Shown piece after piece: positions 12,160 through 29,983 of a DNA stretch of 32,319 nt. Numbering within the stretch: position 1 is the stretch's first letter; every line of letters starts with the position of its first letter. Source of the stretch: Flavobacteriales bacterium (GTDB lineage: Bacteria > Bacteroidota > Bacteroidia > NS11-12g > UBA955); the NCBI GenBank assembly GCA_024643755.1, contig JAHEMG010000208.1:6363-38681 (forward strand). Reading direction: 5' to 3'. A program made the position numbers and the translations under genes. The notes under the pieces are model-generated. The model did no database searches, was not told where the DNA came from, and saw only the letters and a program-made list of their open reading frames with translations.

Positions 12160-13224
12160 ATGGACAACCAAACACAAAATTCAGACGAAATTTCCCTCAA
12201 AGAATTGATCCAACAAATAAGAGAGACCTGGGGATATTTAAAAACCCAATGGGTAAAGTTATTGTTGATGGGATTGCTTGGCGGCTTGGGTGGTTTTTTC
12301 TACGCCAAGTACCAAAAACCAGAGTACACCGCCAAACTCACCTTTGCGTTGGCTGAAGGAGGGGATAAGGTGGGCGGGTTGGGTTCCATTGCTTCTCAGT
12401 TCGGGGTTGATATGGGGGGTAGTTCTGGTGGGGCTTTTAGCGGCGATAATTTGTTGGAGCTGATGAAGAGCCGTTTGTTGATAGAGAAGACCTTGCTCAC
12501 GGCAGTAGACAGCAATGGTAAGCAAAAGTTGCTGATCAACCAGTATATTGATTTTCACAAACCCACAAACCCGAAGCCCAGAAAACCCACAGACCCGGTG
12601 GCGGTAACATTTACGGCAGATAAGTTAGATCCGGAGCGGTTTTCATTGGCCCAAGATTCTTTTTTGGGTAAGGTATGTGCGGATTTGGCCAAGGAGCATT
12701 TAACGGTTTCCAAGGTAGACAAGAAACTGGCCATTGTTTCGGTGATATTTAAGGGGAAAGACGAGTGGTTTGCCAAGCATTTTACCCAGGTGTTGACGCA
12801 GAATGTAACGGAGTTTTATGTGGAGACCAAAACCCGGCAGATGCGTAAGAACGTTCTGATGATGGAGCACAAGGTCGACAGTGTAAAACAGGCCTTGGGC
12901 CGCGCCATGTATGGGGTGGCTTCTGAGGTAGATGGCAACCAATTTTTGGTGCGAGGGGTGGCTAAGGTACCCCAGGCCAAGAAGCAGTTGGAGATTCAAG
13001 TGTTATCGACCATGTACGGCGAATTGTTGAAGAATTTGGAATTGAGCCGCGCCTTGATGGCCAAAGAACAGCCCTTGATTCAATTGATTGATCAACCTAG
13101 GTTTCCTTTGGAAAAGAAGAAAACGTCGAATGTACTTATGTCAGCGGGAGGTTTGTTTTTATTGGTCTTCTTAGGTGTTCTTACACTTCTGTTTCGTCGT
13201 TGGTGGAAGATTCAATTTAATTAG
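12160..13224 (+). CDS. Wzz/chain-length determinant-like inner-membrane protein without kinase domain
   Basis: Polysaccharide co-polymerase of 354 residues. The layout is an N-terminal cytoplasmic stretch, a first membrane segment (about 31-49), a large periplasmic part with a Gly/Ser-rich patch near 70-100 and helical regions (about 180-300), and a second membrane segment (about 325-345) ending in a short basic tail (FRRWWKIQFN). This matches the Wzz family topology. There is no C-terminal Walker A motif or tyrosine cluster, so it is not a Wzc-type BY-kinase. It probably sets chain length together with the Wzy-like polymerase at 25724-26965 and docks on the SLBB exporter. It is the last gene before the sharp drop in G+C. 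Confidence 0.85.
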   Translation: MDNQTQNSDEISLKELIQQIRETWGYLKTQWVKLLLMGLLGGLGGFFYAKYQKPEYTAKLTFALAEGGDKVGGLGSIASQFGVDMGGSSGGAFSGDNLLELMKSRLLIEKTLLTAVDSNGKQKLLINQYIDFHKPTNPKPRKPTDPVAVTFTADKLDPERFSLAQDSFLGKVCADLAKEHLTVSKVDKKLAIVSVIFKGKDEWFAKHFTQVLTQNVTEFYVETKTRQMRKNVLMMEHKVDSVKQALGRAMYGVASEVDGNQFLVRGVAKVPQAKKQLEIQVLSTMYGELLKNLELSRALMAKEQPLIQLIDQPRFPLEKKKTSNVLMSAGGLFLLVFLGVLTLLFRRWWKIQFN

Positions 13225-13441: not shown

Positions 13442-14038
13442 ATGTGGCTGCTTAAAAACTTTTTTATTTCAACAATAATTTTTATTGTTTTATTTTTTTC
13501 TATTGTATTTTGGAATAGAAGTCAAATTAAACCAACAAAACAAGAAATTACTTTATTAAAAGAACAACTTGGTGACATTAATATTAGAAGCGAAAAAGAT
13601 ATTTTTCATATTTCCCAACAAGTTATTTCCAAAATATCCCACAAAGAAAATCTTGATTTTCCATTATCAGTAATTAATACATTGAAAAAAAAGAGTGGCT
13701 TTTGTTATGATAGGTCACTTCTTATGCAGAAGGTTTTTATCTATAATAATATTCCAATCAGGCCTGTTTATATTTATTATTCAACAAATGGAACTGATGT
13801 ATCTATTTTTAATCTATTCGATAAAAATTTATATTCTCATAATATTTTTGAATACAAATTGAATGGTAAGTGGTACATGATGAAAACAAATTATGTTCTA
13901 ACAAAAAGTATTACGTTAAGTGAATATTTAGATCAGGGTACAAGTGTGCCTAAAAACTCAAAATATATTAGATATTTAAATAATAGAAGTGGACAGTTTA
14001 TCTATCCATCATTTATTCCGGACATTTATTTTTTTTAA
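13442..14038 (+). CDS. Membrane-anchored transglutaminase-like protein (tentative)
   Basis: I do not recognise a named family with certainty. The protein has one N-terminal membrane segment (MWLLKNFF start, hydrophobic to about residue 24) and a soluble domain outside or in the periplasm. It resembles the transglutaminase/protease-like fold: GFCYDRS contains a Cys (residue 88 from this start) followed by helix-like LLMQKVFI, then IPIRPV, then SHNIFEYKLNGKWYMM with a His (residue 133). The usual third residue, Asp, appears to be replaced in the MKTN segment. The open frame reaches a first ATG at 13355 (227 residues), but that extension is Pro/His/Thr-rich and unlike coding sequence, so I prefer 13442 (198 residues). 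It stands alone, 217 bases after the Wzz-like gene, as the first gene of the AT-rich island. Confidence 0.6.
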   Translation: MWLLKNFFISTIIFIVLFFSIVFWNRSQIKPTKQEITLLKEQLGDINIRSEKDIFHISQQVISKISHKENLDFPLSVINTLKKKSGFCYDRSLLMQKVFIYNNIPIRPVYIYYSTNGTDVSIFNLFDKNLYSHNIFEYKLNGKWYMMKTNYVLTKSITLSEYLDQGTSVPKNSKYIRYLNNRSGQFIYPSFIPDIYFF

Positions 14039-14045
14039 AGTAATT

Positions 14046-15011
14046 ATGAAGATACTTATCACAGGAGGCGCTGGTTTTATTGGTTCCAATTTAACAGAGT
14101 ATTTCCTCAATAAAAATTACAAAGTAGTTTGTTTAGATAATTTTACTACAGGTCACCATCACAATATCGAAGAATTTCTCACACATCCAAATTATTACTT
14201 ACTAAAGGGAGACATACGGAATTTGAAAGATTGTCAGAATGCAGTAAATGGTGTTGATTACGTTCTGCATCAAGCTGCATTAGGGTCAGTGCCCCGTTCC
14301 ATTAATGACCCAATTACAACGAATGAGGTCAATATATCGGGTTTTCTAAATATCTTGTTGGCATCAAGAGATGCAAAAGTAAAGCGATTTGTCTATGCAG
14401 CTAGTTCATCTACTTATGGTGATTCTGAAAGTTTGCCTAAAGTAGAAGATGTAATTGGAAAACCATTATCACCATATGCTGTAACTAAATATGTTAATGA
14501 ATTGTATGCTGAAATATTTGGTAAAACTTATGGTATCGAAACTATAGGATTACGCTACTTTAATGTTTTTGGTCGTCGACAAGATCCACATGGTGCTTAT
14601 GCTGCGGTTATTCCTTTATTTGTAAAACAGTTAATGAAACACGAATCTCCTGTAATTAATGGCAATGGAGATTACTCCAGAGATTTTACTTATATTGATA
14701 ATGTTATTCAAATGAATGAATTAGCAATGTTAACAAATAATCCTGGAGCAGTAAATACGGTGTACAATACAGCTTATGGTGATAGAACAACGCTAAATCA
14801 ATTAGTGCAATTATTGAAAGAGAATTTAGCTGTTTTTGATTCTAAAATTGCGGAAGTCCAAATAAGTTATGGCCCTAATCGATCAGGAGACATACCTCAT
14901 TCATTAGCTAGCATTGAAAAAGCAAAAAATAAATTAGGATACAATCCCAAATATTCCATAGAACAAGGTATAAAAGAAGCCGTTACATGGTATTATACAA
15001 ATTTGAAATAG
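14046..15011 (+). CDS. wbpP: UDP-N-acetylglucosamine 4-epimerase (WbpP/TviC type)
   Basis: Extended SDR enzyme of 321 residues, predicted to interconvert UDP-GlcNAc and UDP-GalNAc (or their uronic acids) in the cytoplasm. NAD-binding GGAGFIG is at 7-13, the catalytic Ser lies in AASSSTYG (118-125), and the catalytic Tyr144/Lys148 are in SPYAVTK. The stretches KPLSPYAVTKYVNELYAE and LRYFNVFGRRQDPHGAYAAV are what I remember as hallmarks of the WbpP/TviC/WbgU group and not of GalE proper. The frame stays open to an ATG at 13989, but that part overlaps the preceding gene; the ATG at 14046 gives the canonical MKILITGGAG start. It is followed by the dehydrogenase that would act on its product. Confidence 0.85.
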   Translation: MKILITGGAGFIGSNLTEYFLNKNYKVVCLDNFTTGHHHNIEEFLTHPNYYLLKGDIRNLKDCQNAVNGVDYVLHQAALGSVPRSINDPITTNEVNISGFLNILLASRDAKVKRFVYAASSSTYGDSESLPKVEDVIGKPLSPYAVTKYVNELYAEIFGKTYGIETIGLRYFNVFGRRQDPHGAYAAVIPLFVKQLMKHESPVINGNGDYSRDFTYIDNVIQMNELAMLTNNPGAVNTVYNTAYGDRTTLNQLVQLLKENLAVFDSKIAEVQISYGPNRSGDIPHSLASIEKAKNKLGYNPKYSIEQGIKEAVTWYYTNLK

Positions 15012-15054
15012 CCATTTTAGAGCTCCTGCAAATTATAACTTTTAGGCAATTACT

Positions 15055-16332
15055 ATGCAAAAAATAGCAATTATAGGTTTAGGATATGTTGGTCTTCCTC
15101 TAGCAAGATTATTTGCTACAAAATTTCAAGTAGTAGGATTTGACATCAATCAAAAACGAATTAAAGAATTGTGCTCAGGTACAGATATTACTTTGGAAGT
15201 ATCTGACGAAGTTTTACAGAAAGTACTCGTAAGTAAGTTTAATAACAATGAAAACGGTTTGTTGTGCTCGTTTGCGTTACAAGATATAGTAGACTGCAAT
15301 TATTACATTGTAACTGTTCCCACACCTGTCGATAAAAACAATCGTCCAGATTTGAATCCATTGTACAAGGCCAGCGAAACGGTAGGAAAAGTTTTGAAAA
15401 AAGGGGATATTGTAATTTATGAATCTACAGTATATCCAGGGGCTACAGAGGAAGAATGTATTCCTGTTTTGGAAAGTGTATCCGAATTAAAATTTAATGA
15501 AGACTTTTTCGTGGGCTACTCACCCGAACGAATCAACCCCGGAGACAGAGAACATACCGTCGAAAAAATATTGAAAGTAACGGCTGGTTCCACGCCCGAA
15601 ATTGGTAATAGAGTAAACGACCTTTATAAAAGCGTAATTACCGCCGGAACTCATTTAGCACCTAGTATTAAAGTAGCTGAGGCTGCCAAGGTAATTGAAA
15701 ATTCTCAACGCGACCTAAATATTGCTTTTGTTAATGAACTTGCTAAAATATTCAATTTAATGAATATTGATACCCGTGCCGTTTTAGAAGCAGCTGGAAC
15801 CAAATGGAATTTTTTACCCTTTAGACCAGGTTTGGTAGGTGGTCATTGTATAGGTGTCGATCCATATTATTTAGCACAGCGAGCACAAGAATTTGGGTAC
15901 CACCCCGAACTTATTTTAGCTGGTAGACGCATGAATGACAGCATGGGGGAGTACGTGGCTTCTCAAGTAGTTAAACTGATGATAAAAAAAGAGATCATCG
16001 TTAATGGTGCAGAGTTGTTAATGCTAGGAATTACCTTTAAGGAAAATTGCCCTGATGTTCGAAACACTAAGATTAACGATGTGATTTCGGCACTCAGCGA
16101 TTATGGAATTAAGGTTGTCATTTATGACCCTTGGGCCAACCCAGTCGAGGTAAAGCATGAATATGACTTGGAGACCTCCAAATCTTTACCAAACCATAGA
16201 TTTGATGGGGTAGTATTAGGGGTGGCCCACAAGGAGTTTCTAGGTTTAAATTTTGATTCTTTGAAAAAGGAGAAAAGTGTTTTGTTCGATGTTAAAGGGA
16301 TTTTAACTAATGAAGTAGATGGTAGTTTATAA
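15055..16332 (+). CDS. wbpO: UDP-N-acetyl-hexosamine 6-dehydrogenase (WbpO/TviB type)
   Basis: NAD-dependent UDP-sugar 6-dehydrogenase of 425 residues, making a UDP-N-acetyl-hexosaminuronic acid by two successive oxidations. NAD-binding GLGYVGLP is at 8-15. The middle domain shows YESTVYPGATEEE and GYSPERINPGDREH. The catalytic Cys265 lies in VGGHCIGVDPYY, and the linker helix carries EAAKVIENSQRD. The sequence matches the Vi-antigen TviB and P. aeruginosa WbpO group better than UDP-glucose dehydrogenases or WecC, as I recall those sequences. Next to a WbpP/TviC epimerase, it most likely makes UDP-GalNAcA. The start codon is ATG 43 bases after the epimerase stop. Confidence 0.88.
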   Translation: MQKIAIIGLGYVGLPLARLFATKFQVVGFDINQKRIKELCSGTDITLEVSDEVLQKVLVSKFNNNENGLLCSFALQDIVDCNYYIVTVPTPVDKNNRPDLNPLYKASETVGKVLKKGDIVIYESTVYPGATEEECIPVLESVSELKFNEDFFVGYSPERINPGDREHTVEKILKVTAGSTPEIGNRVNDLYKSVITAGTHLAPSIKVAEAAKVIENSQRDLNIAFVNELAKIFNLMNIDTRAVLEAAGTKWNFLPFRPGLVGGHCIGVDPYYLAQRAQEFGYHPELILAGRRMNDSMGEYVASQVVKLMIKKEIIVNGAELLMLGITFKENCPDVRNTKINDVISALSDYGIKVVIYDPWANPVEVKHEYDLETSKSLPNHRFDGVVLGVAHKEFLGLNFDSLKKEKSVLFDVKGILTNEVDGSL

Positions 16333-16402: not shown

Positions 16403-17866
16403 ATGAAGTACTTGAATTTAAAGAATCAATCTTTAAATGCTACAATTTGGACAATAATTGATATTGTTTTCAATAAGGCAACTTTCTTTGTTGCAACATT
16501 AGTTCTAGCAAGATTGCTAGGGCCTAATGAATTTGGTTTGATAGGGATGATATGGGTGTTTTTTACAATAGGAACAACCTTGGTTGATAGTGGTTTGTCA
16601 GTTTCTCTAATTCGAACAGCAAATCCTGATGATGTGGAGTATTCTACTATTTTTTACATAAATTTAGTAATGAGTCTCATTGCATATTTAATTATTTTTA
16701 TTGCATCACCATTTATTGCAGATTTTTATGCTCAACCAATTTTGAAGTCGCTTATTAGAATATATTGTTTCGGTTTTATTATTACAGCACTGCGAATGAT
16801 TGCTCAAACAATGCTTATAAGGGAAATGAATTTCAAAAAGATTGCGATTTTAAATATACCCGGAAATATTGTTGGATTGATTATTGGAGTTTTTATGGCT
16901 ATGAATGAGTATAAAGTTTGGAGTATTGTAGGTTTATATCTTTCTAATCAAATTGTCGCTACAATGATGTATTTCATATTTGTCAAATGGAGACCTAAGA
17001 TAGTTTTTTCCATCGAAAAAATGAAGTATCATTGGAATTTTGGGTATAAATTAATGTTGTCAGCCCAGCTTAATACCGTTTTTGATAATATGTATAATAT
17101 AGTAATTGGAAAATTTTATAGTGTGCAATCATTAGGATATTATGAAAGGGCATATACATTTAATAATTACCCTGTTTCAATTTTATCAGGAATTATTAGT
17201 AAAGTTTCTTTGCCATTATTGTCTCAAATTTCAGAAGACAAACAAAGAACTTTACAGGTATACAGAAAAATCTCAATGTTGTCTTTTTATATTTTATCCC
17301 CGCTCATGCTTGGTGCCTTAGTATTGGCGAAACCTTTGTTCAGTTTGGTTCTGGGCGAACAATGGATACCCGCAGTGCCATTTTTTCAAATATTATGCCT
17401 AGGCTACATGTTGTATCCAATTCACTCCCTAAACATTAATATCCTATCAATATATGGCAAGAGCAATTTGTTTTTAAAACTGGAAATTATTAAAAAAGTA
17501 ATGTTAATAGTACTTGTTTTAGTTGCATTTAATTTCGGAATTTATGGACTGGTTTGGAGCAGTGTAATTAGTTCTTATATTGCCTTATTCATAAATACAT
17601 TTTACACTGGCGGCCTCATTTTATACTATACTAAAGATCAATTAATAGACCTGATACCAACATTAATCATATCCATTTTTATGGCAATTTTTATGTATAT
17701 CATTCATATATTACTTATAGATTATATCAATCTAATACAGATTGTTTTTCCCTCAATAGTTGGACTATTTTCTTTTGGTTTACTATCTTTCATTACAAGA
17801 AATGAATCATTCTATTGTCTAATTACACTGTTAAAAACAAAAAGTAGTAATGATACCAGTAACTAA
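16403..17866 (+). CDS. wzx: Wzx-type oligosaccharide flippase (MOP superfamily)
   Basis: Inner-membrane protein of 487 residues, almost entirely hydrophobic, with about 12-14 membrane segments. The N-terminus (NATIWTIIDIVFNKATFFVATLVLARLLGPNEFGLIGM) is typical of the WzxC-like branch of polysaccharide transporters. That family moves undecaprenyl-linked repeat units from the cytoplasmic to the periplasmic face. It overlaps the following aminotransferase gene by 17 bases, so the two are likely translationally coupled. The gap before it (16333-16402) holds no exact TAnnTTTG box. Confidence 0.9.
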   Translation: MKYLNLKNQSLNATIWTIIDIVFNKATFFVATLVLARLLGPNEFGLIGMIWVFFTIGTTLVDSGLSVSLIRTANPDDVEYSTIFYINLVMSLIAYLIIFIASPFIADFYAQPILKSLIRIYCFGFIITALRMIAQTMLIREMNFKKIAILNIPGNIVGLIIGVFMAMNEYKVWSIVGLYLSNQIVATMMYFIFVKWRPKIVFSIEKMKYHWNFGYKLMLSAQLNTVFDNMYNIVIGKFYSVQSLGYYERAYTFNNYPVSILSGIISKVSLPLLSQISEDKQRTLQVYRKISMLSFYILSPLMLGALVLAKPLFSLVLGEQWIPAVPFFQILCLGYMLYPIHSLNINILSIYGKSNLFLKLEIIKKVMLIVLVLVAFNFGIYGLVWSSVISSYIALFINTFYTGGLILYYTKDQLIDLIPTLIISIFMAIFMYIIHILLIDYINLIQIVFPSIVGLFSFGLLSFITRNESFYCLITLLKTKSSNDTSN

Positions 17867-18923
17867 ATCTTTTCTACCTACTTTTGAAGAATATTCAGCA
17901 CAAATTAAAAGAGTATTCGATAATCAATGGTTAACTAATCGTGGACCATTATTATTGGAATTAGAAGAAAAAATAAAAGAATATTTGTCTATTTCTAATA
18001 TCATTATTATGAACAATGGAACAATTCCATTGCAAATAGCTTTGAGGCTTCTTGGAAAAGGCGGAGAAATTATAACAACACCTTTTAGTTATGTCGCAAC
18101 TACAGCAGCTATAGTATGGGAAAACTGCACTCCTGTTTTTGTTGATATTAACCCAGAATTTTTAACTATTGATGTAACTAAAATTGAAGCAGCTATTACA
18201 AAAAAGACTACGTGTATTCTGGCAACTCATGTTTTTGGTAATCCTTGTAATGTGGAAGCCATTGAATATATTGCTGATAAACACAACCTCAAGGTCATTT
18301 ATGACGCAGCTCATTGTTTTGGAGTAACATACAAAGGGAAAAGCATATTTGAATATGGTGATATAAGTACTTGCTCTTTTCACGCAACTAAATTATTCCA
18401 TACTGGTGAAGGTGGGGCTTTATTTACTAAAGATCCTGAGCTATTTCATAAATGTTATTATTCCCATACCTTTGGTCATTTAGGTCCAATAGATTATCAT
18501 GGAGTGGGAATTAATGGTAAAATTTCGGAACTACAAGCGGCTATGGGATTATCCGTTATACCTTATATGGCCGTGATTTTAAATGAAAGAAAAAAAGTGA
18601 TTGATTTTTATTTGTGTCACTTAGATTGTGAAAAAATTAAAACAATTAAATTAGTTGATAATTCAAATTGGAATTATAGTTATTTCCCGATCATTTTTAG
18701 CTCTGAAGAAATTTTATTAAAGGCTCAAAAATTTTTAAATGATAACAATATTTTCCCCCGCCGTTACTTTTATCCATCATTAAATACAATCGAATATACT
18801 AAAGGTAACAAAATGCCTGTATCAGAGTCAATTGCTAAAAGGGTTTTGTGTTTGCCGCTTTATGTAGGTCTAAGCGAAATAGAACTTGATAAAATTGTTA
18901 ACTTAATTAACTCGACTCTGTAA
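17850..18923 (+). CDS. DegT/DnrJ/EryC1/StrS-family PLP-dependent sugar aminotransferase
   Basis: Transfers an amino group to a keto-deoxy nucleotide sugar. The 357-residue protein shows a PLP-binding Asp152 (VIYDAAH), the catalytic Lys181 that forms the internal aldimine (SFHATKLFHTGEGG) and a conserved NNGT near 55-58 that binds the phosphate. The N-terminus IPVTKSFLP...NQWLTNRGP resembles VioA-type enzymes, which make dTDP-4-amino-4,6-dideoxyglucose, but this is from memory and other C3/C4 aminotransferases cannot be excluded. No RmlA/RmlB-like genes for a dTDP-keto sugar are in the window, so the substrate must come from elsewhere. It overlaps wzx by 17 bases and abuts the WbqC-like gene with no gap. 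Confidence 0.9.
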   Translation: MIPVTKSFLPTFEEYSAQIKRVFDNQWLTNRGPLLLELEEKIKEYLSISNIIIMNNGTIPLQIALRLLGKGGEIITTPFSYVATTAAIVWENCTPVFVDINPEFLTIDVTKIEAAITKKTTCILATHVFGNPCNVEAIEYIADKHNLKVIYDAAHCFGVTYKGKSIFEYGDISTCSFHATKLFHTGEGGALFTKDPELFHKCYYSHTFGHLGPIDYHGVGINGKISELQAAMGLSVIPYMAVILNERKKVIDFYLCHLDCEKIKTIKLVDNSNWNYSYFPIIFSSEEILLKAQKFLNDNNIFPRRYFYPSLNTIEYTKGNKMPVSESIAKRVLCLPLYVGLSEIELDKIVNLINSTL

Positions 18924-19625
18924 ATGAAGATAGCCATAATGCAACCGTATTTCTTTCCATATATAGGGTATTTTCAATTAATAAATTCAGTTGATGAATT
19001 TGTTATCTACGATAATATACAGTTTACAAAGAAAGGTTGGATAAATAAAAATCGAATTTTAGTAAACGGATCTGATGTGTTGGTATCGCTTCCTCTTAAG
19101 AAAGATTCAGATTTTTTAAACGTGAACGAGCGATTTTTGGCGAATACTTGGGAAGTGGAGCGAAAAAAGATGCTTAATCGTATCACAGAATCATATCGGA
19201 AAGCTCCACACTTTAAGAATGTATACGCTGTCATCGAGGAATGTATTGTGTATGATGATCGAAATCTTTTTAAATTTATTTTACATTCTGTACAAACCTT
19301 AATGCAATATTTAAATATTGAAACTAACCTTGTAATATCTTCTTCTATTTCAATAAACCATCAGTTAAAAAGTGACGAAAAGGTAATGGCAATTTGCAAG
19401 GAAAGAGGAGCTGGTATTTATATTAATCCTATTGGCGGAGTTAATCTGTATGATAAGGAACACTTCAAGCAAAATAATCTTGAATTGCAATTTCAAAAGT
19501 CGAATAGTATCACCTATAAACAGTTTAATAATGAGTTCGTACCTTGGCTTTCCATTATTGATGTAATGATGTTTAATAATGAAGACCAGATTAAGTCAGC
19601 TTTGAGCAACTATTTATTACTATAA
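18924..19625 (+). CDS. WbqC-like family protein
   Basis: A 233-residue cytoplasmic protein with the WbqC family start, IAIMQPYFFPYIGYFQL (3-19), then VDEFVIYDNIQFTKKGWINKNRI, which are the family's conserved blocks. The biochemical role of the family is not established as far as I know. Members occur in O-antigen and capsule clusters, often next to sugar aminotransferases, and are suspected of acting on amino groups of sugars. Here the ATG directly abuts the aminotransferase stop and its own stop overlaps the next start by one base, so the products are made together, supporting a shared pathway. No membrane segment. Confidence 0.88.
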   Translation: MKIAIMQPYFFPYIGYFQLINSVDEFVIYDNIQFTKKGWINKNRILVNGSDVLVSLPLKKDSDFLNVNERFLANTWEVERKKMLNRITESYRKAPHFKNVYAVIEECIVYDDRNLFKFILHSVQTLMQYLNIETNLVISSSISINHQLKSDEKVMAICKERGAGIYINPIGGVNLYDKEHFKQNNLELQFQKSNSITYKQFNNEFVPWLSIIDVMMFNNEDQIKSALSNYLLL

Positions 19626-20479
19626 TGAAAGTAGCCATAGTTGGTCCAAATTCTTCAATCTCTCAAGCAATCATTCCGTTGTTTAGTAAAGAATACGAAA
19701 TCATTACGGTAGGTAGAAAAAATGCGGATATTAAATTGGATTTACAATCAATAGATGTTCCTATAAAATTACCTGAAAATATTGAGGTCATTATTCATAG
19801 CGCAGCCCATTTTGGAGGTAGTTCCTTAGAAGATACTTGTGATGCATTAAAGGTTAATATTTTGGGTACTTTAAGGCTTTTTGATGCGGCTGTTTTATCG
19901 AATGTAAGGCAATTCGTGTATGTGTCCAGTCTTTATAGTCATTTAACCTCCAATTCCAATCAATACAGCATGTATTCCTTATCCAAAAGATGTTCAGAGG
20001 ATATACTCAAGTTGTATTCAAAAGGGAAGAAAGTAAAATTGCTTATAATCAGACCTTCGCAGATTTATGGTAATTATTATTCAATGAGGAAACATCAACC
20101 TTTTTTTTATTCAATAATAGACAAGATAAAAAAGAATGAGAAGGTTGTATTTTGGGGCGGAAGGGACCCATCTAGAAACCTTATTCATATTGATGATTTG
20201 GCTAACATTATTTATCAATCTATAATCAATGGAATAGAGGGTGAATTTGATTGTGCTTTTCCCAGCAATGTTTCTTTCATCAAGATTGCCGAGGCTGCAA
20301 AAGCAGCCTTTAACAGTTCAAGTGAAATATATTTTGACACTTCCTTTCCTGATATTGAAGATATCAATATCGAATTTGAAACATCGCTTTATCCGAAAAT
20401 TAATTTTTACCCAAGAATTACGATTTGTGAAGGAATAAAAATGCTTTCTGATTTTATGAAAACCACACCGAATGAATAG
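19625..20479 (+). CDS. NAD-dependent epimerase/dehydratase-like SDR
   Basis: Extended short-chain dehydrogenase/reductase of 284 residues. The active-site Tyr117 and Lys121 are in MYSLSK, the catalytic Ser lies in YVSSLYSH (99-106), and a substrate-side motif IRPSQIYG follows. The N-terminal dinucleotide loop is unusual: VGPNSSISQAI (6-16) instead of GxxGxxG. Similar loops occur in some SDR sugar enzymes, so activity is not excluded. It may be a reductase, epimerase or dehydratase acting on the aminotransferase substrate. It overlaps the WbqC-like gene by one base and the ATP-grasp gene by eight. Confidence 0.85.
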   Translation: MKVAIVGPNSSISQAIIPLFSKEYEIITVGRKNADIKLDLQSIDVPIKLPENIEVIIHSAAHFGGSSLEDTCDALKVNILGTLRLFDAAVLSNVRQFVYVSSLYSHLTSNSNQYSMYSLSKRCSEDILKLYSKGKKVKLLIIRPSQIYGNYYSMRKHQPFFYSIIDKIKKNEKVVFWGGRDPSRNLIHIDDLANIIYQSIINGIEGEFDCAFPSNVSFIKIAEAAKAAFNSSSEIYFDTSFPDIEDINIEFETSLYPKINFYPRITICEGIKMLSDFMKTTPNE

Positions 20480-21452
20480 AACAATTTTAGTTTCTGGAGC
20501 AAGTGGCATCGTAGGATATGGTGTATTGAAGGCCCTTAAAAACACCGGAAAGAATTTGCTTCTTATAGGAACTACCATTTATGACGACTCTGTTGCTCAG
20601 GGATTTTGTGATGTTTTGGAAAAGGCAGTACCAACCAAGGACGAGAACTATATAAATTGGCTGCTGTCAATTATAAAGAAACATAATGTTGATTTAATTA
20701 TTCCTGGTATTGAGGCCGATTTGTATAAATGGTCCAGCCATAAAGATATGATTGAAAATGCTGGTGCCATTTTGGTAACAAATAATCTTTCTCTGATAGA
20801 GCTTTGTAAGGACAAATGGGTATTTTACAAAGAACTTTCCAAAATCAATTCTCCATACTTGATCCAAACCTCCTTAGTTACAGAATTCACGGAAATTGTA
20901 AAGATGTTTGGTTTGCCATTTTTATTAAAACCCAAAAGAGGATTTGCCTCTAAGGGTATTGTTAAAGTGATAAATGAGGATGTGTTTAATTTGCATAAAG
21001 GACAAATAGGAGAAATATTAATGGTCCAGGAAATAGTTGGAAATGAAGAGGAAGAGTTCACCACCTCTGCATTTTGTGATGGTAAAGGCTCATATTATGC
21101 CAGTATGACACTTAAAAGGAAGTTGGCCAAAGACGGTTATACGGATCGAGCGGAAACATATGTACTTGAGGATATTGATAAGGTATTGAATCATTTTTGT
21201 GTCTATCTTAAGCCAATCGGACCTACCAACTTTCAATTTAGGAGGCACAATGGTGAATTAAAATTGCTTGAAATAAATCCACGAATCTCATCTTCAACGT
21301 CGATTAGAACGGCTTTTGGATATAATGAATCTGAAATGATTCTGGATTATTATTTGGAAAACAAAGAACCTGTTCAGCCTCAACTCAGAACAGGTAAAGC
21401 CGTTAGGTACACAGAAGATAAAATATTCTTTGATGATAGGAATAATCTCTGA
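20472..21452 (+). CDS. ATP-grasp ligase
   Basis: ATP-grasp enzymes join a carboxylate to an amine through an acyl-phosphate. In this 326-residue protein the pre-ATP-grasp domain begins ILVSGASGIVGYGV (5-18), the ATP-binding Lys153 lies in LLKPKRGFASKG, and the metal-binding end of the domain is EINPRISSS (267-275). The layout is closest to carbamoyl-phosphate-synthase-like ATP-grasp proteins. In a polysaccharide locus next to an aminotransferase, it could couple an amino acid or other acid to a sugar amine; that is inference. It overlaps the neighbours on both sides (8 bases before, about 20 after), implying tight coupling. Confidence 0.88.
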   Translation: MNRTILVSGASGIVGYGVLKALKNTGKNLLLIGTTIYDDSVAQGFCDVLEKAVPTKDENYINWLLSIIKKHNVDLIIPGIEADLYKWSSHKDMIENAGAILVTNNLSLIELCKDKWVFYKELSKINSPYLIQTSLVTEFTEIVKMFGLPFLLKPKRGFASKGIVKVINEDVFNLHKGQIGEILMVQEIVGNEEEEFTTSAFCDGKGSYYASMTLKRKLAKDGYTDRAETYVLEDIDKVLNHFCVYLKPIGPTNFQFRRHNGELKLLEINPRISSSTSIRTAFGYNESEMILDYYLENKEPVQPQLRTGKAVRYTEDKIFFDDRNNL

Positions 21453-22104
21453 TATTCACGGAAATTACGAGGCTCTTAAAGTTGTACTTAAGGAGTTGGA
21501 TAATAAAGGTGTTTCAAAAATATACTGCTTAGGTGATGTTGTTGGCTATTTTTCTCAGGTAAATGAGTGTTGTGAAGTACTTAGAGAAAGAAATATAGAG
21601 TGTTTGATGGGCAACCATGATTGGTATATGAGTGCAGGAAGTTATTGTCCAAGGTCACAAAGTGTGAATGATTGTTTGGTATATCAGCGGAAAATTATCA
21701 CACCCGAAAATTTTAACTGGTTAAAAACATTTAAACTGCAGTTTGAATTTAACAATGTGAAAATGGTTCATGGTGGTTGGATAGATCCTATTGACGAATA
21801 TTTATATGAGCCCAGTGTCGAATATTTTGATAAAATTGAGGGGCAAGTATTTATATCTGGACATACGCATATTCAGCAACTTAGGCAATTTGGCAATAAA
21901 ACATATTGTAATCCAGGGTCTGTTGGAATGCCAAGGGATGATAATCCCCAATCGGCTTATGCAACAATTGAAAATGGTATTTTTACCCTTCACCGGGTTG
22001 AGTATGATATTGATAAAGTTGGCGAGTTAATGGATAAAGCAGGGTTTAATAGCTATTATTATGGTGGTCTAAAAACTGGATCAAGAAATCTTCGTAAACC
22101 TTAA
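21433..22104 (+). CDS. Calcineurin-like metallophosphoesterase (YfcE-like)
   Basis: Binuclear-metal phosphoesterase of 223 residues. All metal ligands are visible: Asp7 and His9 (SDIHGN), Asp35 (LGDVVG), Asn61 and His62 (MGNHD), His113 (MVHGG) and His144/His146 (SGHTHI), plus NPGSVG (160-165). This set is typical of the YfcE/MJ0936-like group that hydrolyses phosphodiesters or phosphomonoesters. A TTG three bases upstream (21430) would add one residue; the ATG at 21433 is preferred. It overlaps the ATP-grasp gene by 20 bases. A phosphoesterase within such a cassette may remove a phosphate from a sugar or coenzyme intermediate, but the substrate is unknown. Confidence 0.9.
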   Translation: MIGIISDIHGNYEALKVVLKELDNKGVSKIYCLGDVVGYFSQVNECCEVLRERNIECLMGNHDWYMSAGSYCPRSQSVNDCLVYQRKIITPENFNWLKTFKLQFEFNNVKMVHGGWIDPIDEYLYEPSVEYFDKIEGQVFISGHTHIQQLRQFGNKTYCNPGSVGMPRDDNPQSAYATIENGIFTLHRVEYDIDKVGELMDKAGFNSYYYGGLKTGSRNLRKP

Positions 22105-22119
22105 AGTAAAAAGAACGAA

Positions 22120-23079
22120 ATGTTTGAATGGGAAAAATTAGGTAGAATTTATAATCCTCATGATTTTGAGGAAAGGCCTGAATGGATGTTTGAATTTGCT
22201 CAGGCACCAAGTGTATTAATTTTCGATGAAATTGTTAGAGTTTTTTTTGGATCAAGGCCTAAACGAGATGCTAATGGACAGTATGTAACCTATTCTACCT
22301 TTATTGACCTCGATAGGAAGAACTTATTCAACATTATCAACATTGCCAAGGAACCAATATTAAAGTTGGGAAATTGTGGCTGTTTTGATGAGTTTGGAAC
22401 CTATCCACTCTCAGTTATTCGAAAAAATGATGAAGTCTGGGCTTATTATGCTGGTTGGACGAGATGCGAATCGGTGCCATTTAATGTAGGGATAGGATAT
22501 GCAATTAGTACAGATAATGGATTAACCTTTCAAAAACCTGGGGAGGGGCCAATTTTGCCTTATAGTTTAGACGAGCCTTTCACTTTAAGTGGGCCAAAAA
22601 TCCGAAAATTCGGAGAAACATATTACCTTTTTTATATTGCAGGGAAGGAATGGATTAAGGTTAATGGAAAGCCTGAAATAAGCCATAAGATTAGAATGGC
22701 TTATTCTGACGATGGGATTAAGTGGAATAAATTAAACAAGGATATTATTCCAAATGGATGGGATGAGGCTGAATCCCAAGCAAGTCCAGATGTGTTTTTT
22801 GCCAACGGAAAGTATCATATGTTTTTTTGTGGCTGGGTACCGGCTAATTTTAGGGTAACTCGAACCAGAATTATTGGATATGCCTATTCTGAGGATTTAA
22901 TTCATTGGACCCGTGATGACTCGAAAGTTGGGATTCATTTATCAACAGAAGGATGGGATTCAGAGATGTTGGCATATCCACATGTGTTTGAATTGGATGG
23001 GAATACTTATATGATGTATATTGGAAATGAGGTAGGTAGGTATGGATTTGGTTTGGCGAAGTTAAAAGGTAGTTTATAA
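22120..23079 (+). CDS. Five-bladed beta-propeller protein, GH32/43/130-like fold (copy 1)
   Basis: A 319-residue soluble protein made of repeated beta-blades with Trp/Tyr-rich motifs typical of the GH32/GH43/GH62/GH130 propeller fold: IGYAISTDNGLTF, MAYSDDGIKW, IGYAYSEDLIHW. Conserved blocks shared with the next gene include FAQAP (26-30), GCFDEFG (87-93) and the C-terminal YGFGLAKL. I see no signal peptide, so it likely acts in the cytoplasm, which argues against secreted polysaccharide hydrolysis. Similar proteins occur in LPS clusters and their function is not established to my knowledge. It lies 15 bases after the phosphoesterase gene and two bases before its paralogue. Confidence 0.8.
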   Translation: MFEWEKLGRIYNPHDFEERPEWMFEFAQAPSVLIFDEIVRVFFGSRPKRDANGQYVTYSTFIDLDRKNLFNIINIAKEPILKLGNCGCFDEFGTYPLSVIRKNDEVWAYYAGWTRCESVPFNVGIGYAISTDNGLTFQKPGEGPILPYSLDEPFTLSGPKIRKFGETYYLFYIAGKEWIKVNGKPEISHKIRMAYSDDGIKWNKLNKDIIPNGWDEAESQASPDVFFANGKYHMFFCGWVPANFRVTRTRIIGYAYSEDLIHWTRDDSKVGIHLSTEGWDSEMLAYPHVFELDGNTYMMYIGNEVGRYGFGLAKLKGSL

Positions 23080-23081
23080 TA

Positions 23082-24038
23082 ATGAATTGGAAAAAGCTGG
23101 GAAAGATTTTTGACCCGTGCGATCATGTTTGGAAAGATGATTTTATTGGATTCGCACAATCACCTCAAACGTTAGTTTTTGGTGATTTTGTGAGGGTATA
23201 TTTTTCCATTAGAAAAAATGATGGTTGTGGAAAATTTATCAGTCATATTCAATATGTAGATTTTGAGTTGGATATGAAAACCATTAGAAAGGTGTCTGAT
23301 CATCCTGTTTTTGGTCCAGGCAAACTTGGCTGTTTTGATGAACATGGTGTTTTTCCGATGAATGTTTTGAGGGTAGGGGATAAGATATTCGGGTATACAA
23401 ATGGATGGACCCGAAGGGTTTCAGTATCTGTAGAAACAGGAATAGGTTTTGCCATTAGTCACGATCAGGGAGAAACATTTGAACGAATTGGGGATGGACC
23501 AATAATGTCGGCAACAACCCGGGAACCTGTTTTGGTTGGTGATGCTTTTGTTCAGCAGTATGATGGATTGTTTCATATGTGGTATTTGTTTGGATTAGGT
23601 TGGAAGAAATATTCAGATGCACCCCCAGACAGGATATATAAAATTGCACATGCTACTTCCATCGATGGCATTAACTGGCAGAAAGAGGAAGCAATACAAA
23701 TTATATCTGATAAGCTCAATCAAGATGAGTGTCAAGCATTGCCTACGGTGATTTTCCACAATAATATTTATCATATGTACTTCTGTTACAGAAGTGCTTT
23801 TGACTTTCGAAAAAATAAAAGTAACGGTTACCGCATAGGATACGCTTATTCAAGTGATCTTAAAACATGGAAGAGAGCTGATAATCTTGCGGGAATTACA
23901 GTTTCCGAAAATGATTGGGATTCAGATATGCAATGTTATCCTCATATTTTTAAATTGAAAAACAAGGTGTACTTACTTTACAATGGTAATGAGTTTGGTA
24001 AAAATGGATTTGGTATCGCTGAATTAGTCGAAAGTTAA
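23082..24038 (+). CDS. Five-bladed beta-propeller protein, GH32/43/130-like fold (copy 2)
   Basis: Paralogue of the preceding gene, 318 residues, alignable end to end: WKKLGKIF against WEKLGRIY, GFAQSP, GCFDEHG (83-89), IGFAISHDQGETF, IGYAYSSDLKTW and the end NGFGIAEL. The copies differ at most positions, so the duplication is old or both were acquired together. The blade motifs place it in the same propeller group; catalytic residues cannot be assigned with confidence. No signal peptide. The ATG comes two bases after the stop of copy 1. The two proteins may form a heteromer or act on successive residues. Confidence 0.8.
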   Translation: MNWKKLGKIFDPCDHVWKDDFIGFAQSPQTLVFGDFVRVYFSIRKNDGCGKFISHIQYVDFELDMKTIRKVSDHPVFGPGKLGCFDEHGVFPMNVLRVGDKIFGYTNGWTRRVSVSVETGIGFAISHDQGETFERIGDGPIMSATTREPVLVGDAFVQQYDGLFHMWYLFGLGWKKYSDAPPDRIYKIAHATSIDGINWQKEEAIQIISDKLNQDECQALPTVIFHNNIYHMYFCYRSAFDFRKNKSNGYRIGYAYSSDLKTWKRADNLAGITVSENDWDSDMQCYPHIFKLKNKVYLLYNGNEFGKNGFGIAELVES

Positions 24039-24117: not shown

Positions 24118-24858
24118 ATGATAAAACGTGATTTAAACAAAGAATTTCAGGATAATGAAGGTCGTAAATACACATATGGCTTTGATTTGGATGTGATGCA
24201 TCCATACATGATTAAATCTTTCAAACCATTTTTTAAGAAGGGTAACTTCCTCGAAATGGGTAGTTTTCAAGGTAATTTCACAAAAAGATTTTTAGATTAT
24301 TTTGATGACATAACCTGTTTAGAAGCTTCAGATGAGGCCATCAAAGTTGCAAAAGAATTAATTGGTGACAAGGTTAAATACGTCCATGGAATGTTTGAAG
24401 AAGTGACACTCCCAACAAAATACGAAAATATTGTTTTAACACATGTTTTAGAGCACATTACAGACCCAGTTGCTGTGTTAAAGAAAATCAACGATGAATG
24501 GTTATCTGATACTGGCAGATTATTTTTGGTTTGTCCGAATGCTAATGCACCTTCAAGACAAATTGCTGTTAAAATGGGATTAATTACTCACAATAGTGCT
24601 GTAACACCAGCAGAAAAAGAACATGGCCATCAGATTACTTATACACTGGATACTTTGGAAAGAGATGCTCGTTTAGCAGGATTGAACATCGTACATAGAT
24701 CTGGTGTTTTTTTTAAAGCATTGGCTAACTTTCAATGGGATCAATTGTTAAATACTGAAATAATTTCTAAAGAATATTTAGATGGATGTTATAAATTAGG
24801 TCAACAATATCCTGATTTATGTTCAAGTATATTTTTAATGTGTGAAAAAGGTAAATAA
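24118..24858 (+). CDS. Class I SAM-dependent methyltransferase
   Basis: A 246-residue cytoplasmic methyltransferase. SAM-binding motif I is FLEMGSFQGNFT (44-55), the acidic residue after strand 2 is Glu69 (CLEAS), and the Methyltransf_11/23-type motif is THVLEHITDP (108-117). The protein lies in the polysaccharide locus and its stop directly abuts the GT2 start, so the acceptor is likely a sugar, or a sugar-linked group, of the repeat unit. The 79-base gap upstream with a direct repeat sets it apart from the preceding cassette. Confidence 0.85.
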   Translation: MIKRDLNKEFQDNEGRKYTYGFDLDVMHPYMIKSFKPFFKKGNFLEMGSFQGNFTKRFLDYFDDITCLEASDEAIKVAKELIGDKVKYVHGMFEEVTLPTKYENIVLTHVLEHITDPVAVLKKINDEWLSDTGRLFLVCPNANAPSRQIAVKMGLITHNSAVTPAEKEHGHQITYTLDTLERDARLAGLNIVHRSGVFFKALANFQWDQLLNTEIISKEYLDGCYKLGQQYPDLCSSIFLMCEKGK

Positions 24859-25668
24859 ATGATTCAACCGTTATTATCTGTTTGTATTATTACTTATAAT
24901 CATGATAAATATATACGAGATGCAATAGAAGGTGTTTTAATGCAAAAAGTAAATTTCGATTATGAAATTATAATTGCAGATGATTTCTCTACAGATGACA
25001 CCAGAAAAATAGTACTAGGTTATTCTGAAAAATATCCGAATATTTTCAAGCTAATTTTTCAAAATAAAAATGTTGGAGCAGCTCAAAACTGGCTAGATTT
25101 GATTTCTTTTCCAAAATCTAAATATATAGCATATTTCGAGGGAGATGATTATTGGACGGACCCATTAAAACTTCAAAAGCAATTCGATTTTTTAGAGAAA
25201 AATAGTAGTTTTTCTTGTTGTTTTCACGATGTTAAAATATTACAAGCCCATAAAGAAGATTTCTTCAAATATGAATCTCCTCTATGCAATGAGTTGTCTT
25301 TTTCACAAGTATTAAAAAAACATTATATCCCATCTTCAAGTTTAGTTTTCAGGAATTATAAATGGCTAAAGAAAATGCCATATTTTTTTAAACATTCAAT
25401 TTCTGGAGATATTCCACTAGAATTGCTCTTAGCAAAGGAAGGTAAAATTAAATATATGAATGAAGTGATGTCTTGCTACAGGAGAAATTTAGGGAGTGTT
25501 ACCCAAAGTAATAGAACTGCTACGGAGATTTTAAACGGGTATGTATGGATGTATACACAGTTATCGAAACATGTACCAGTTAAATATGCTTTAATTGTTT
25601 ACTTGAAAGCAGTGAAATGTAAATTGCAGTTTTATAAATATAAATTTATAAATATTTTCCTCACATAA
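24859..25668 (+). CDS. Family 2 glycosyltransferase
   Basis: GT-A fold transferase of 269 residues that probably adds one sugar to the undecaprenyl-linked repeat unit at the cytoplasmic face. The N-terminal nucleotide-binding signature is LSVCIITYNHDKYI (6-19), with ADDFSTDDT (40-48) and the metal-binding DxD-type motif EGDDYW (94-99). Start ATG directly follows the methyltransferase stop. It has no membrane segment. Donor and acceptor cannot be told from sequence. Confidence 0.9.
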   Translation: MIQPLLSVCIITYNHDKYIRDAIEGVLMQKVNFDYEIIIADDFSTDDTRKIVLGYSEKYPNIFKLIFQNKNVGAAQNWLDLISFPKSKYIAYFEGDDYWTDPLKLQKQFDFLEKNSSFSCCFHDVKILQAHKEDFFKYESPLCNELSFSQVLKKHYIPSSSLVFRNYKWLKKMPYFFKHSISGDIPLELLLAKEGKIKYMNEVMSCYRRNLGSVTQSNRTATEILNGYVWMYTQLSKHVPVKYALIVYLKAVKCKLQFYKYKFINIFLT

Positions 25669-28018: not shown

Positions 28019-29983
28019 ATGTGCGGAATTGCTGGATTTTATGCATTAAAAAAAGACTTCAATACTGAAAAGGGATCTGGAATCTTGGAAGACATGTGTG
28101 ATTCGATAATAAGTAGAGGACCAGATGCATTTGGATATTGGATTGACCAGAACGCATCAGTTTTTCTTGGACACAGAAGATTATCTATTTTGGAACTTTC
28201 CGATGCTGGTAAACAACCAATGACATCGATAAATAAAAAGTTTGTTATAATATTTAATGGGGAAATATATAATCATCTTTTAATAAGAAAAGAAATAGAA
28301 AAGCAAGTTGGAACGGTAAATTGGAAAGGCTTATCAGATACCGAAACTATACTGGCTGGATTTGAACTTTGGGGCGTTGAAAATACCATTCGAAAATTAA
28401 TAGGAATGTTTGCATTTGCCGTTTGGAATACGGAGGAAAGATCATTCACTTTAGGTAGAGATAGAGTCGGTGAAAAGCCTTTATATTATGGGTGGCTTTA
28501 TGATAATGAGAATGGCAAAATTTTGGTTTTCGGTTCTCAACTTAAATCAATTCGTAAACATCCTGCATTCATTTCGGAAATTGATAGAGATGCACTAAGT
28601 TTATATTTTAGGCATAATTATATACCCGCACCGTATTCTATTTATAAGGGAATAAACAAATTAGAGCCAGGAACTCTATTTGTTGTCTCGGATTCAAATG
28701 TAGATGGTAAAATAGTTAAGTATTGGTCAGCTGAAAGTGTTGTAAAGGTTGGGGTTCTAAATCCATTCGAAGGAACTTTGGGTGATGCTGTTACTGAGTT
28801 AGATGCTTTGCTGAACAATGCAGTTAAATTACAGATGATTTCTGATGTACCCGTAGGCGCGTTTTTATCAGGCGGGGTCGATTCTTCTACTGTTGTTGCA
28901 CTCATGCAGTCAAATTCTTCAAGAGCAGTTAAAACATTTTCGATTGGGTTTACAGACGAAATGTACGATGAAGCGAAATACGCTAAGCAAGTGGCACATC
29001 ATATTGGCACGGAACATACCGAATTGTATGTGACACCGGAACAGGCAATGATGGTAATTCACGAGCTTCCAGAAATTTATGACGAGCCATTTTCAGATTC
29101 TTCCCAAATTCCAACTTATTTGGTTTCAAAATTAGCAAAAACACAAGTTACAGTTGCTTTATCTGGTGATGCAGGAGATGAATTGTTTTGCGGATACAAT
29201 AGATATACATTCACAAAAAAATTATGGAACAATCTGAATTATTTACCAATAGGGGTAAGAAGCGGTATTGCACAGATGATTTCTAGCGTATCTCCGAACA
29301 AGTGGAATAATTTATTTAATAGTTTCCGTTTTGTAAATAATCATCGATATATAGGTGATAAAATCCATAAAGCTTCAGGAATTTTAACAAGTAGAACAAT
29401 AGAGGATTTATATTTAGGCCTGATTTCACATTGGAGTTCTCCATGTGACTTGGTATTAAATTCGTTGGAGCCTTCTGGGATTTATAAGTCTTACACATCA
29501 CTATTTAATGTTCTAGACGACGTTCAAAAAATTATGTTTTTAGATACAGTATCATATTTACCAGATGACATTTTAGTTAAGGTTGATCGAGCGGCTATGG
29601 CAGTGTCACTAGAAACTCGTGTCCCTTTTTTAGATCACAGAGTAGTTGAATTTGCATGGAGTCTACCTCAGAAGTATAAAATGAATAATGGATTTTCAAA
29701 GCTAGTATTACGGGAAGTTTTATATAATTACGTTCCAAAAAATATGATTGAAAGACCTAAAATGGGTTTTGGAGTTCCTTTGGGAGACTGGCTTAGAGGG
29801 CCTTTAAAACCTTGGGCAGAAGATTTAATTTCTGAAGATAAAATCAGGAAAGAAGGACTATTAAACTACGATTTAATAAAAGATAAATGGGATGATCATA
29901 TGAGTGGTAGAAGAAATTGGTCTTATCAGATTTGGGATGTGTTAATGTTTCAAGCTTGGTTTGAAAATCAAAAAAAGAATTAA
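28019..29983 (+). CDS. asnB: Glutamine-dependent asparagine synthase-like amidotransferase
   Basis: AsnB-family enzyme of 654 residues. The N-terminal Ntn glutaminase domain has catalytic Cys2 (MCGIAGFY) and the motifs RGPDAFGYW, GHRRLSI and FNGEIYN. The C-terminal synthetase domain has the PP-loop SGGVDSS (284-290) and SGDAGDELFCGYNRY, so both halves look functional. True asparagine synthases share these features, but the position inside a polysaccharide locus with a UDP-GalNAcA pathway suggests amidation of the uronate C6, as proposed for WbpS-like proteins in Pseudomonas O-antigen clusters. It is AT-rich like its neighbours. Confidence 0.92.
   Translation: MCGIAGFYALKKDFNTEKGSGILEDMCDSIISRGPDAFGYWIDQNASVFLGHRRLSILELSDAGKQPMTSINKKFVIIFNGEIYNHLLIRKEIEKQVGTVNWKGLSDTETILAGFELWGVENTIRKLIGMFAFAVWNTEERSFTLGRDRVGEKPLYYGWLYDNENGKILVFGSQLKSIRKHPAFISEIDRDALSLYFRHNYIPAPYSIYKGINKLEPGTLFVVSDSNVDGKIVKYWSAESVVKVGVLNPFEGTLGDAVTELDALLNNAVKLQMISDVPVGAFLSGGVDSSTVVALMQSNSSRAVKTFSIGFTDEMYDEAKYAKQVAHHIGTEHTELYVTPEQAMMVIHELPEIYDEPFSDSSQIPTYLVSKLAKTQVTVALSGDAGDELFCGYNRYTFTKKLWNNLNYLPIGVRSGIAQMISSVSPNKWNNLFNSFRFVNNHRYIGDKIHKASGILTSRTIEDLYLGLISHWSSPCDLVLNSLEPSGIYKSYTSLFNVLDDVQKIMFLDTVSYLPDDILVKVDRAAMAVSLETRVPFLDHRVVEFAWSLPQKYKMNNGFSKLVLREVLYNYVPKNMIERPKMGFGVPLGDWLRGPLKPWAEDLISEDKIRKEGLLNYDLIKDKWDDHMSGRRNWSYQIWDVLMFQAWFENQKKN

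Follow-up and report, generated by a model that had tools for sequence, protein, structure and literature searches.

A tandem pair of five-bladed propeller proteins in a gene cassette probably used for building an amino sugar

The propeller genes and their locus

The window analysed here, a stretch of 32,319 nucleotides from a Flavobacteriales bacterium, contains two adjacent genes, designated PropA and PropB, that lie among genes for glycan synthesis. The pair and the genes relevant to it are all on the forward strand.

13989..16332, + strand: TviC-like epimerase and TviB-like UDP-sugar dehydrogenase (context)
16403..17866, + strand: Wzx-type flippase (context, indicating an exported polysaccharide)
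17850..18923, + strand: DegT/DnrJ/EryC1/StrS aminotransferase; the nearest NCBIfam model is DesI, with a score below its cut-off
18924..19625, + strand: WbqC-like protein (PF08889, 233.6 bits)
19625..20479, + strand: NAD-dependent epimerase/dehydratase family protein, present in 6 of 14 pair loci
20472..21452, + strand: ATP-grasp ligase, PRK12767-type, scoring slightly below the NCBIfam cut-off
21430..22104, + strand: calcineurin-like metallophosphoesterase, YfcE type
22120..23079, + strand: PropA (pair member A, 319 aa), a cytosolic propeller of five blades with a GH130/GH43-type fold
23082..24038, + strand: PropB (pair member B, 318 aa), likewise a cytosolic propeller of five blades; D154 is specific to its clade
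24118..24858, + strand: SAM-dependent methyltransferase, the best-kept partner in the cassette
24859..25668, + strand: GT2 glycosyltransferase

PropA and PropB are the only copies in the source genome. Their genes are 2 bases apart and their products share 39% identity over 316 aligned positions (E 2e-79), so that the initial annotation of the two as tandem genes alignable along their full length is borne out by the exact open reading frame coordinates. The blocks GCFDE(F/H)G and FAQ(A/S)P that it had picked out are present in both proteins; across 18 sequences the C of the first block is variable, whereas FDE and the next G are invariant, as are the Q and the P of the second. Signal peptides had been described as lacking, and this agrees with the models, in which the first beta-strand of the fold begins at residue 4 (PropA) or residue 2 (PropB) and leaves no space for one.

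The locus is biosynthetic, as had been proposed, with the Wzx flippase, nucleotide-sugar enzymes, glycosyltransferases and an AsnB-like amidotransferase around the pair, and a Wza-like SLBB protein and a weak Wzz match just 5' of the glycan genes. The source genome also encodes RmlB (470 bits), so a dTDP-4-keto-6-deoxy sugar should be available to it. The pair lies in a low-GC stretch (about 0.26–0.39) that starts near 13.0 kb and is preceded by a region of about 0.46–0.56; the fall at about position 13000 is sharp (from about 0.47 to about 0.29) and is located where the glycan-specific genes begin, a pattern that an exchanged locus would be expected to show. The AsnB-like amidotransferase (28019–29983), together with the TviB/TviC-like genes (13989–16332), could amidate a uronic acid in the same glycan.

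Fold and conserved residues

AlphaFold2 models built on an 18-sequence alignment are of high confidence for both PropA (pLDDT 92.5) and PropB (pLDDT 90.8), with a pTM of 0.91 each, and both are five-bladed propellers of the GH43/GH130/GH137 type, the fold expected of GH130. These models, and structural matches to GH137, GH130, GH43, GH32 and GH117, confirm the GH32/43/130-like fold that had been proposed from the sequence. The top structural match of PropA is BT_0996 (GH137, 5mt2; Z 28.5 over 293 residues, 17% identity), a likeness at the level of the fold; BT_0996 is a glycoside hydrolase that acts on plant pectin outside the cytosol. Other matches include the GH130 enzyme Teth514_1788 (Z 28.0), a GH43 enzyme (Z 27.4), the mannoside synthase Uhgb_MS (Z 26.3) and an N-acetylgalactosamine deacetylase (6n1a; Z 24.8, 288 residues aligned), and Foldseek returned a comparable list for PropB. 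Among known systems the GH130/GT108 beta-mannoside phosphorylases and transferases (7fip, 9gph, 9erg; Leishmania MTP, 6Q50) have the same five-bladed propeller, and the best sequence matches in the PDB are GH130 beta-mannoside phosphorylases (E 1.6e-12); GH130-type entries reach DALI-scale Z-scores of 26–28 with PropA, yet are only 13–15% identical to it in the structural alignment.

PropA scores above the Pfam cut-offs for GH130 (PF04041; 36.5 bits against 26) and GH32N (31.2 bits against 22.1), and PropB below both (21 and 13.3 bits). With GINT1_N (PF24793, cut-off 27 bits) PropA scores 22.2 bits and PropB is not listed. Profile comparison with six GH130 proteins (picked from 30 loci for an EDP motif and a length below 420 aa, with one strand read) indicates homology but in several blade registers, which because of the internal symmetry provides no residue correspondence. 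Taken with the locus, these results support the description of PropA and PropB as cytosolic paralogues of the GH32/43/130-type fold inside a synthesis locus.

Conservation was mapped in the 26 pair proteins, which have 47 invariant columns, and in a wider set of 49 aligned sequences, in which 12 columns are invariant: R46, W178, D280, Y286 and eight Gly or Trp positions. Despite the low overall identity the four residues R46, W178, D280 and Y286 are retained in 49/49, and presumably they line the central pocket. D280 is the one acid invariant in all 49 sequences; D90 is found in 43.

The acids familiar from related enzymes are not at their usual places. In GH130 the proton donor is the Asp of an EDP motif that precedes the inner strand of the second blade; at this position, with the register taken from a sequential structural alignment and not from a residue-level table, there is Tyr95 in 13/13 PropA and Phe91 in 13/13 PropB sequences. 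In GH43 enzymes the inner strands of blades 1–3 each carry one residue of an acidic triad at the tip, and the corresponding residues here are Ala or Ser (29/27), Tyr or Phe (95/91), and at 158/154 Gly in PropA, with Asp only in PropB. The residues before the inner-strand prolines in PropA and PropB are A29/S27, Y95/F91, G158/D154 and S222/L220, and these four are among only nine columns that are diagnostic for A versus B; the hypergeometric probability that four of five canonical positions would be diagnostic is 1.5e-6, for positions that were picked by what is known of the families, after the alignment had been seen. To judge from the sequences, the family keeps a conserved polar set and has lost the textbook acids, and the two copies differ exactly at those positions. 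An ordinary hydrolase overlooked in the initial annotation was considered and rejected, as there is neither a secretion signal nor a canonical acid set. That annotation had offered phosphorylases, transferases or scaffolds as options, and the first of these is weakened because the GH130 proton-donor position is Tyr or Phe in 26/26 pair proteins.

A cassette in several phyla and a related one in phage contigs

Fourteen loci with both propellers (the window, L001–L008, L012, L013, L016, L026 and L164) were compared, from Bacteroidota, Pseudomonadota, Mycolicibacterium and Gastranaerophilales. PropA, PropB, a DegT aminotransferase, a WbqC protein and a methyltransferase of the window's type occur together in all 14, with DegT just downstream on the other strand in L006, so that the suggested genome-neighbourhood survey reveals the pair as a fixed part of a cassette that spans phyla. 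The methyltransferase is 65–79% identical to that of the window in most loci and 47% in Mycolicibacterium; for DegT the range is 32–62%. Between PropB and the methyltransferase there is a GNAT gene in seven loci (by Pfam in L005, L012 and L164, by similarity or annotation in the other four) and a formyltransferase gene in one (L026), giving a dedicated soluble N-acyltransferase in 8/14. The window is among the remaining six (with L001, L002, L003, L004 and L008), in which an ATP-grasp ligase, always accompanied by a metallophosphoesterase, adjoins PropA instead; L002 has an AT3-type acyltransferase in addition. The two arrangements show zero overlap, 8 versus 6, although these are not 14 independent events because five of the six ATP-grasp loci belong to one PropA clade. 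A glycosyltransferase gene lies directly 3' of the methyltransferase in 10/14.

A tree of 13 PropA, 13 PropB and 7 single propellers places each of the three groups on its own side of a branch (support 100/98, 99/98 and 100/100), and this clean separation indicates that the pair arose by one old duplication. PropA and PropB of the pair loci are 35–49% identical. The genes are tandem in 12 of the 13 tree loci and in L164, overlapping by at most 4 bases or separated by at most 13, the exception being Mycolicibacterium (L003), where they are on opposite strands. The one comparison made, between the pairs of two Rhizobium plasmids, gave low dN/dS values (PropA 0.051, PropB 0.067), indicative of purifying selection. 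Two divergent copies had been taken to suggest distinct roles or a heterodimer, and distinct roles are likely in view of the separate clades and the nine diagnostic columns, four of them at canonical catalytic positions.

The genomic settings vary. In Rhizobium plasmids the cassette forms an operon of seven genes that stands alone amid unrelated ones, in Alginatibacterium (L006) it is accompanied by a Maf glycosyltransferase and NeuB in a flagellin-glycosylation island, in L008 it adjoins the flagellar gene flgT, and in L001 it is near a GT41 gene. Since polysaccharide, flagellar and stand-alone contexts are all represented, the common substrate is probably a cytosolic amino sugar and not a polymer; to judge from these contexts, the substrates shared by all would be that sugar and its first transfer product. 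A propeller homologue is present in 9 of 97 genomes of relatives, in none of 14 other genomes of the source genus and in 2/118 of the genus of the Mycolicibacterium genome. Across 296 genomes of the phylum the pair is found in two, and the methyltransferase (E <= 1e-40) in the same two and no other. On plasmids, the methyltransferase was found in 20 records, of which 17 also encode PropA (at 53% or above); the rest comprise two Cupriavidus records and one from Methylobacterium. A search of E. coli genomes whose O-antigens are known, as a key to the sugar, gave no match.

We also considered whether WbqC and the propeller always go together, and rejected this, as a propeller is within 1.5 kb in 1/29 non-self loci of a survey of the 30 best-scoring WbqC loci among those found; in newly found phage WbqC contigs, one is within 8 kb in 2/6. 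The dependence is one-way: N-acyltransferases, DegT and WbqC occur without the propeller, and the propeller is mostly found with them. No relative of WbqC with a solved structure was found, and in the available part of PMC5507510 WbqC appears as a domain name only.

Single propellers are found in both bacteria and viral contigs. The 15 bacterial loci have a hexapeptide acyltransferase nearby in nine cases (absent in six) and a GNAT in a tenth, with WbqC in six and PhyH in three. Scanning viral contigs identified 17 with a single propeller, 22–39% identical to PropA, and the 16 with a complete propeller gene have a hexapeptide acyltransferase (16), PhyH (15), WbqC (14) and DegT (14); in the same panel search a second methyltransferase type was found in five and the panel glycosyltransferases in none. 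Pfam assignments for 149 phage neighbour open reading frames include PhyH (17), Hexapep (16), WbqC (14) and DegT (14), as well as glycosyltransferase group 1 (six) and family 2 (five). The uncultivated viral contigs L175–L190 thus share a recurrent cassette of DegT, PhyH, WbqC, hexapeptide acyltransferase and propeller genes, and in 12/16 phage loci the acyltransferase gene is directly 5' of the propeller gene. Several of these contigs encode short DegT-like proteins of about 200–220 aa (L175:3441–4073, L180:4688–5338, L188:8946–9557 and others), 43–82% conserved among ten loci; those tested align with no more than the initial part of the family profile, and they may not be active aminotransferases. 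The phage identity of the contigs comes from the collection and a few genes (an endolysin in L186 and a weak tape-measure match in L185); seven of ten proteins checked had either no match or a match of unknown function. Named isolate phages had no match to PropA or to two phage propellers, PropB had none in the viral contigs in a scan with the window protein as sole query, which finds close relatives only, and Foldseek of viral structures gave low-identity propellers only.

Possible roles of the propellers

The cassette is probably used by bacteria of several phyla for building an unusual amino sugar, and the data suggest that a glycosidase-type fold was recruited for making, not breaking, sugars. 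The reading that we rank first, tentatively and at somewhat less than an even chance, is that PropA and PropB are a repurposed pair that recognises and transfers or tailors an N-acylated amino sugar within a synthesis cassette. Starting from the fold, pairing, phylogeny, cassette membership and conservation seen above, we infer the activity, sugar, step, chemistry and pocket lining as follows. PropA and PropB would form a separate, cytosolic branch among the five-bladed propellers of glycosidases and phosphorylases, one that has been taken over for synthesis, and would be an obligate pair in a horizontally spreading cassette for an N-acylated, methylated amino sugar. DegT would add the amine to a keto sugar, a GNAT, formyltransferase or ATP-grasp ligase would acylate it, the methyltransferase would then methylate the amino sugar, and a GT2 or other glycosyltransferase would usually be supplied. 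The propellers would come into play once acylation is done, when the N-acyl amino sugar is in its activated form or has just been transferred. Most likely they would be enzymes of sugar transfer or tailoring, with a pocket using D280, R46, Y286 and W178, and duplication would have given two different pockets; D154 of PropB, where PropA has Gly, points to different specificities.

That the propeller depends on amino-sugar genes, while these do not depend on it, is consistent with a step that follows N-acylation. Weighing against this reading, the glycosyltransferase after the methyltransferase in 10/14 loci may already cover the transfer step, the range of DegT identity implies that the sugar need not be one and the same across loci, and the missing canonical acids fit a binding protein as well. 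A more specific version, which we consider doubtful, is that the propellers constitute a new family of glycosyl-transferring enzymes of the cytosol, with N-acylated amino sugars as the ligands recognised and with the lone invariant Asp moved to blade 5. Two diverged copies would work as a pair in the surface-polysaccharide and flagellin cassettes of bacteria, and one enzyme alone in the cassette of the uncultivated phages.

The pathway of known product nearest to the cassette is the viosamine island for P. syringae flagellin (vioA, vioB, vioM, vioT, vioR, vioS and acp), which according to the available text of PMC3927599 yields an N-acylated, O-methylated 4-amino sugar. It is likewise small and combines an aminotransferase, an N-acyl step, a methyltransferase and a glycosyltransferase, although its acyl machinery, as described there, differs; the aminotransferase and methyltransferase characteristic of it are present in 14/14 pair loci. 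The words glycosidase and glycosylase are absent from the main text of PMC3927599, and a literature search for propellers in glycan synthesis gave nothing beyond a glycoside phosphorylase review. GT108, likened here by its description in the part of PMC8950772 consulted, is a precedent for synthesis on the propeller fold.

Ranked second is the possibility, rather unlikely in our estimate, that PropA and PropB have no catalytic role and instead bind sugar as subunits, offering the amino sugar or the growing glycan to one of the enzymes of the cassette (acyltransferase, methyltransferase or glycosyltransferase). The GINT1_N propellers, which occur alone or fused to a formyltransferase and may do likewise, have the same fold type and sugar-modifying enzymes nearby, and L093:3666–5288 encodes such a 541-aa fusion (Formyl_trans_N 37.2 bits, GINT1_N 148.9 bits). 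A binding role would accord with the separate formyltransferase gene 3' of PropB in L026, with the non-acidic residues at the canonical positions of PropA and with neighbours that are modifying enzymes. However, PropA is below the GINT1_N cut-off and PropB unlisted, GINT1_N has no match in the window genome and differs from the pair in genome neighbourhoods, no fusion is seen in the PropA/PropB family, the L026 formyltransferase is only weakly like the fused one of L093 (24% over 95 aa, E 4e-4), and D280, R46, W178 and Y286 are invariant in 49/49 sequences despite low overall identity.

It is improbable that the propellers work as phosphorylases or hydrolases of the GH130/GT108 kind, with a part in recycling or proofreading a cytosolic glycan or sugar nucleotide. 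The closest PDB sequences, the Z-scores with Teth514_1788 and the mannoside synthase, and the PropA score above the Pfam GH130 cut-off are all in keeping with such a role, and GT108 is described in that part of PMC8950772 as the same fold doing transfer plus phosphorolysis. Against it are the Tyr or Phe in place of the EDP acid and the lack of any recurrent mannan or storage-glycan gene in the loci examined, in which the recurring neighbours are amino-sugar enzymes. Action on the N-acyl group of the amino sugar (deacylation or acyl exchange), like that of the propeller-fold GalNAc deacetylase of F. plautii, has very little probability despite the match to 6n1a and the nearby N-acyltransferases, since the Z-score is below those for GH137 and GH130 and, judged within the propeller family alone, there is no conserved His-rich metal site (most single propellers lack H233).

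If the propellers do transfer or tailor an N-acylated amino sugar, a fold known chiefly for cutting sugars would have been turned into a dedicated part of synthesis, in parallel to GT108 in Leishmania but in bacteria and phages, and for sugars of another kind. Proteins annotated as 'glycosylase', 'exo-alpha-sialidase' or 'hypothetical' would gain a role, the unexplained WbqC family would enter a testable pathway, and there would be a bearing on the question, raised for cyanophages in the available part of PMC3037559, of whether the polysaccharide gene clusters of phages have a function or serve as stuffer DNA.

Propeller-free loci of related composition also exist. In the two that were examined of the three plasmid records with the methyltransferase and without PropA at that level, from Methylobacterium bullatum (L098:6799–9741) and Cupriavidus metallidurans (L099:8220–9738), DegT, WbqC, a PhyH dioxygenase and a window-type methyltransferase occur with no propeller, suggesting that the propeller is not required for every related sugar. 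The Methylobacterium locus has two window-type methyltransferases, which flank a GNAT.
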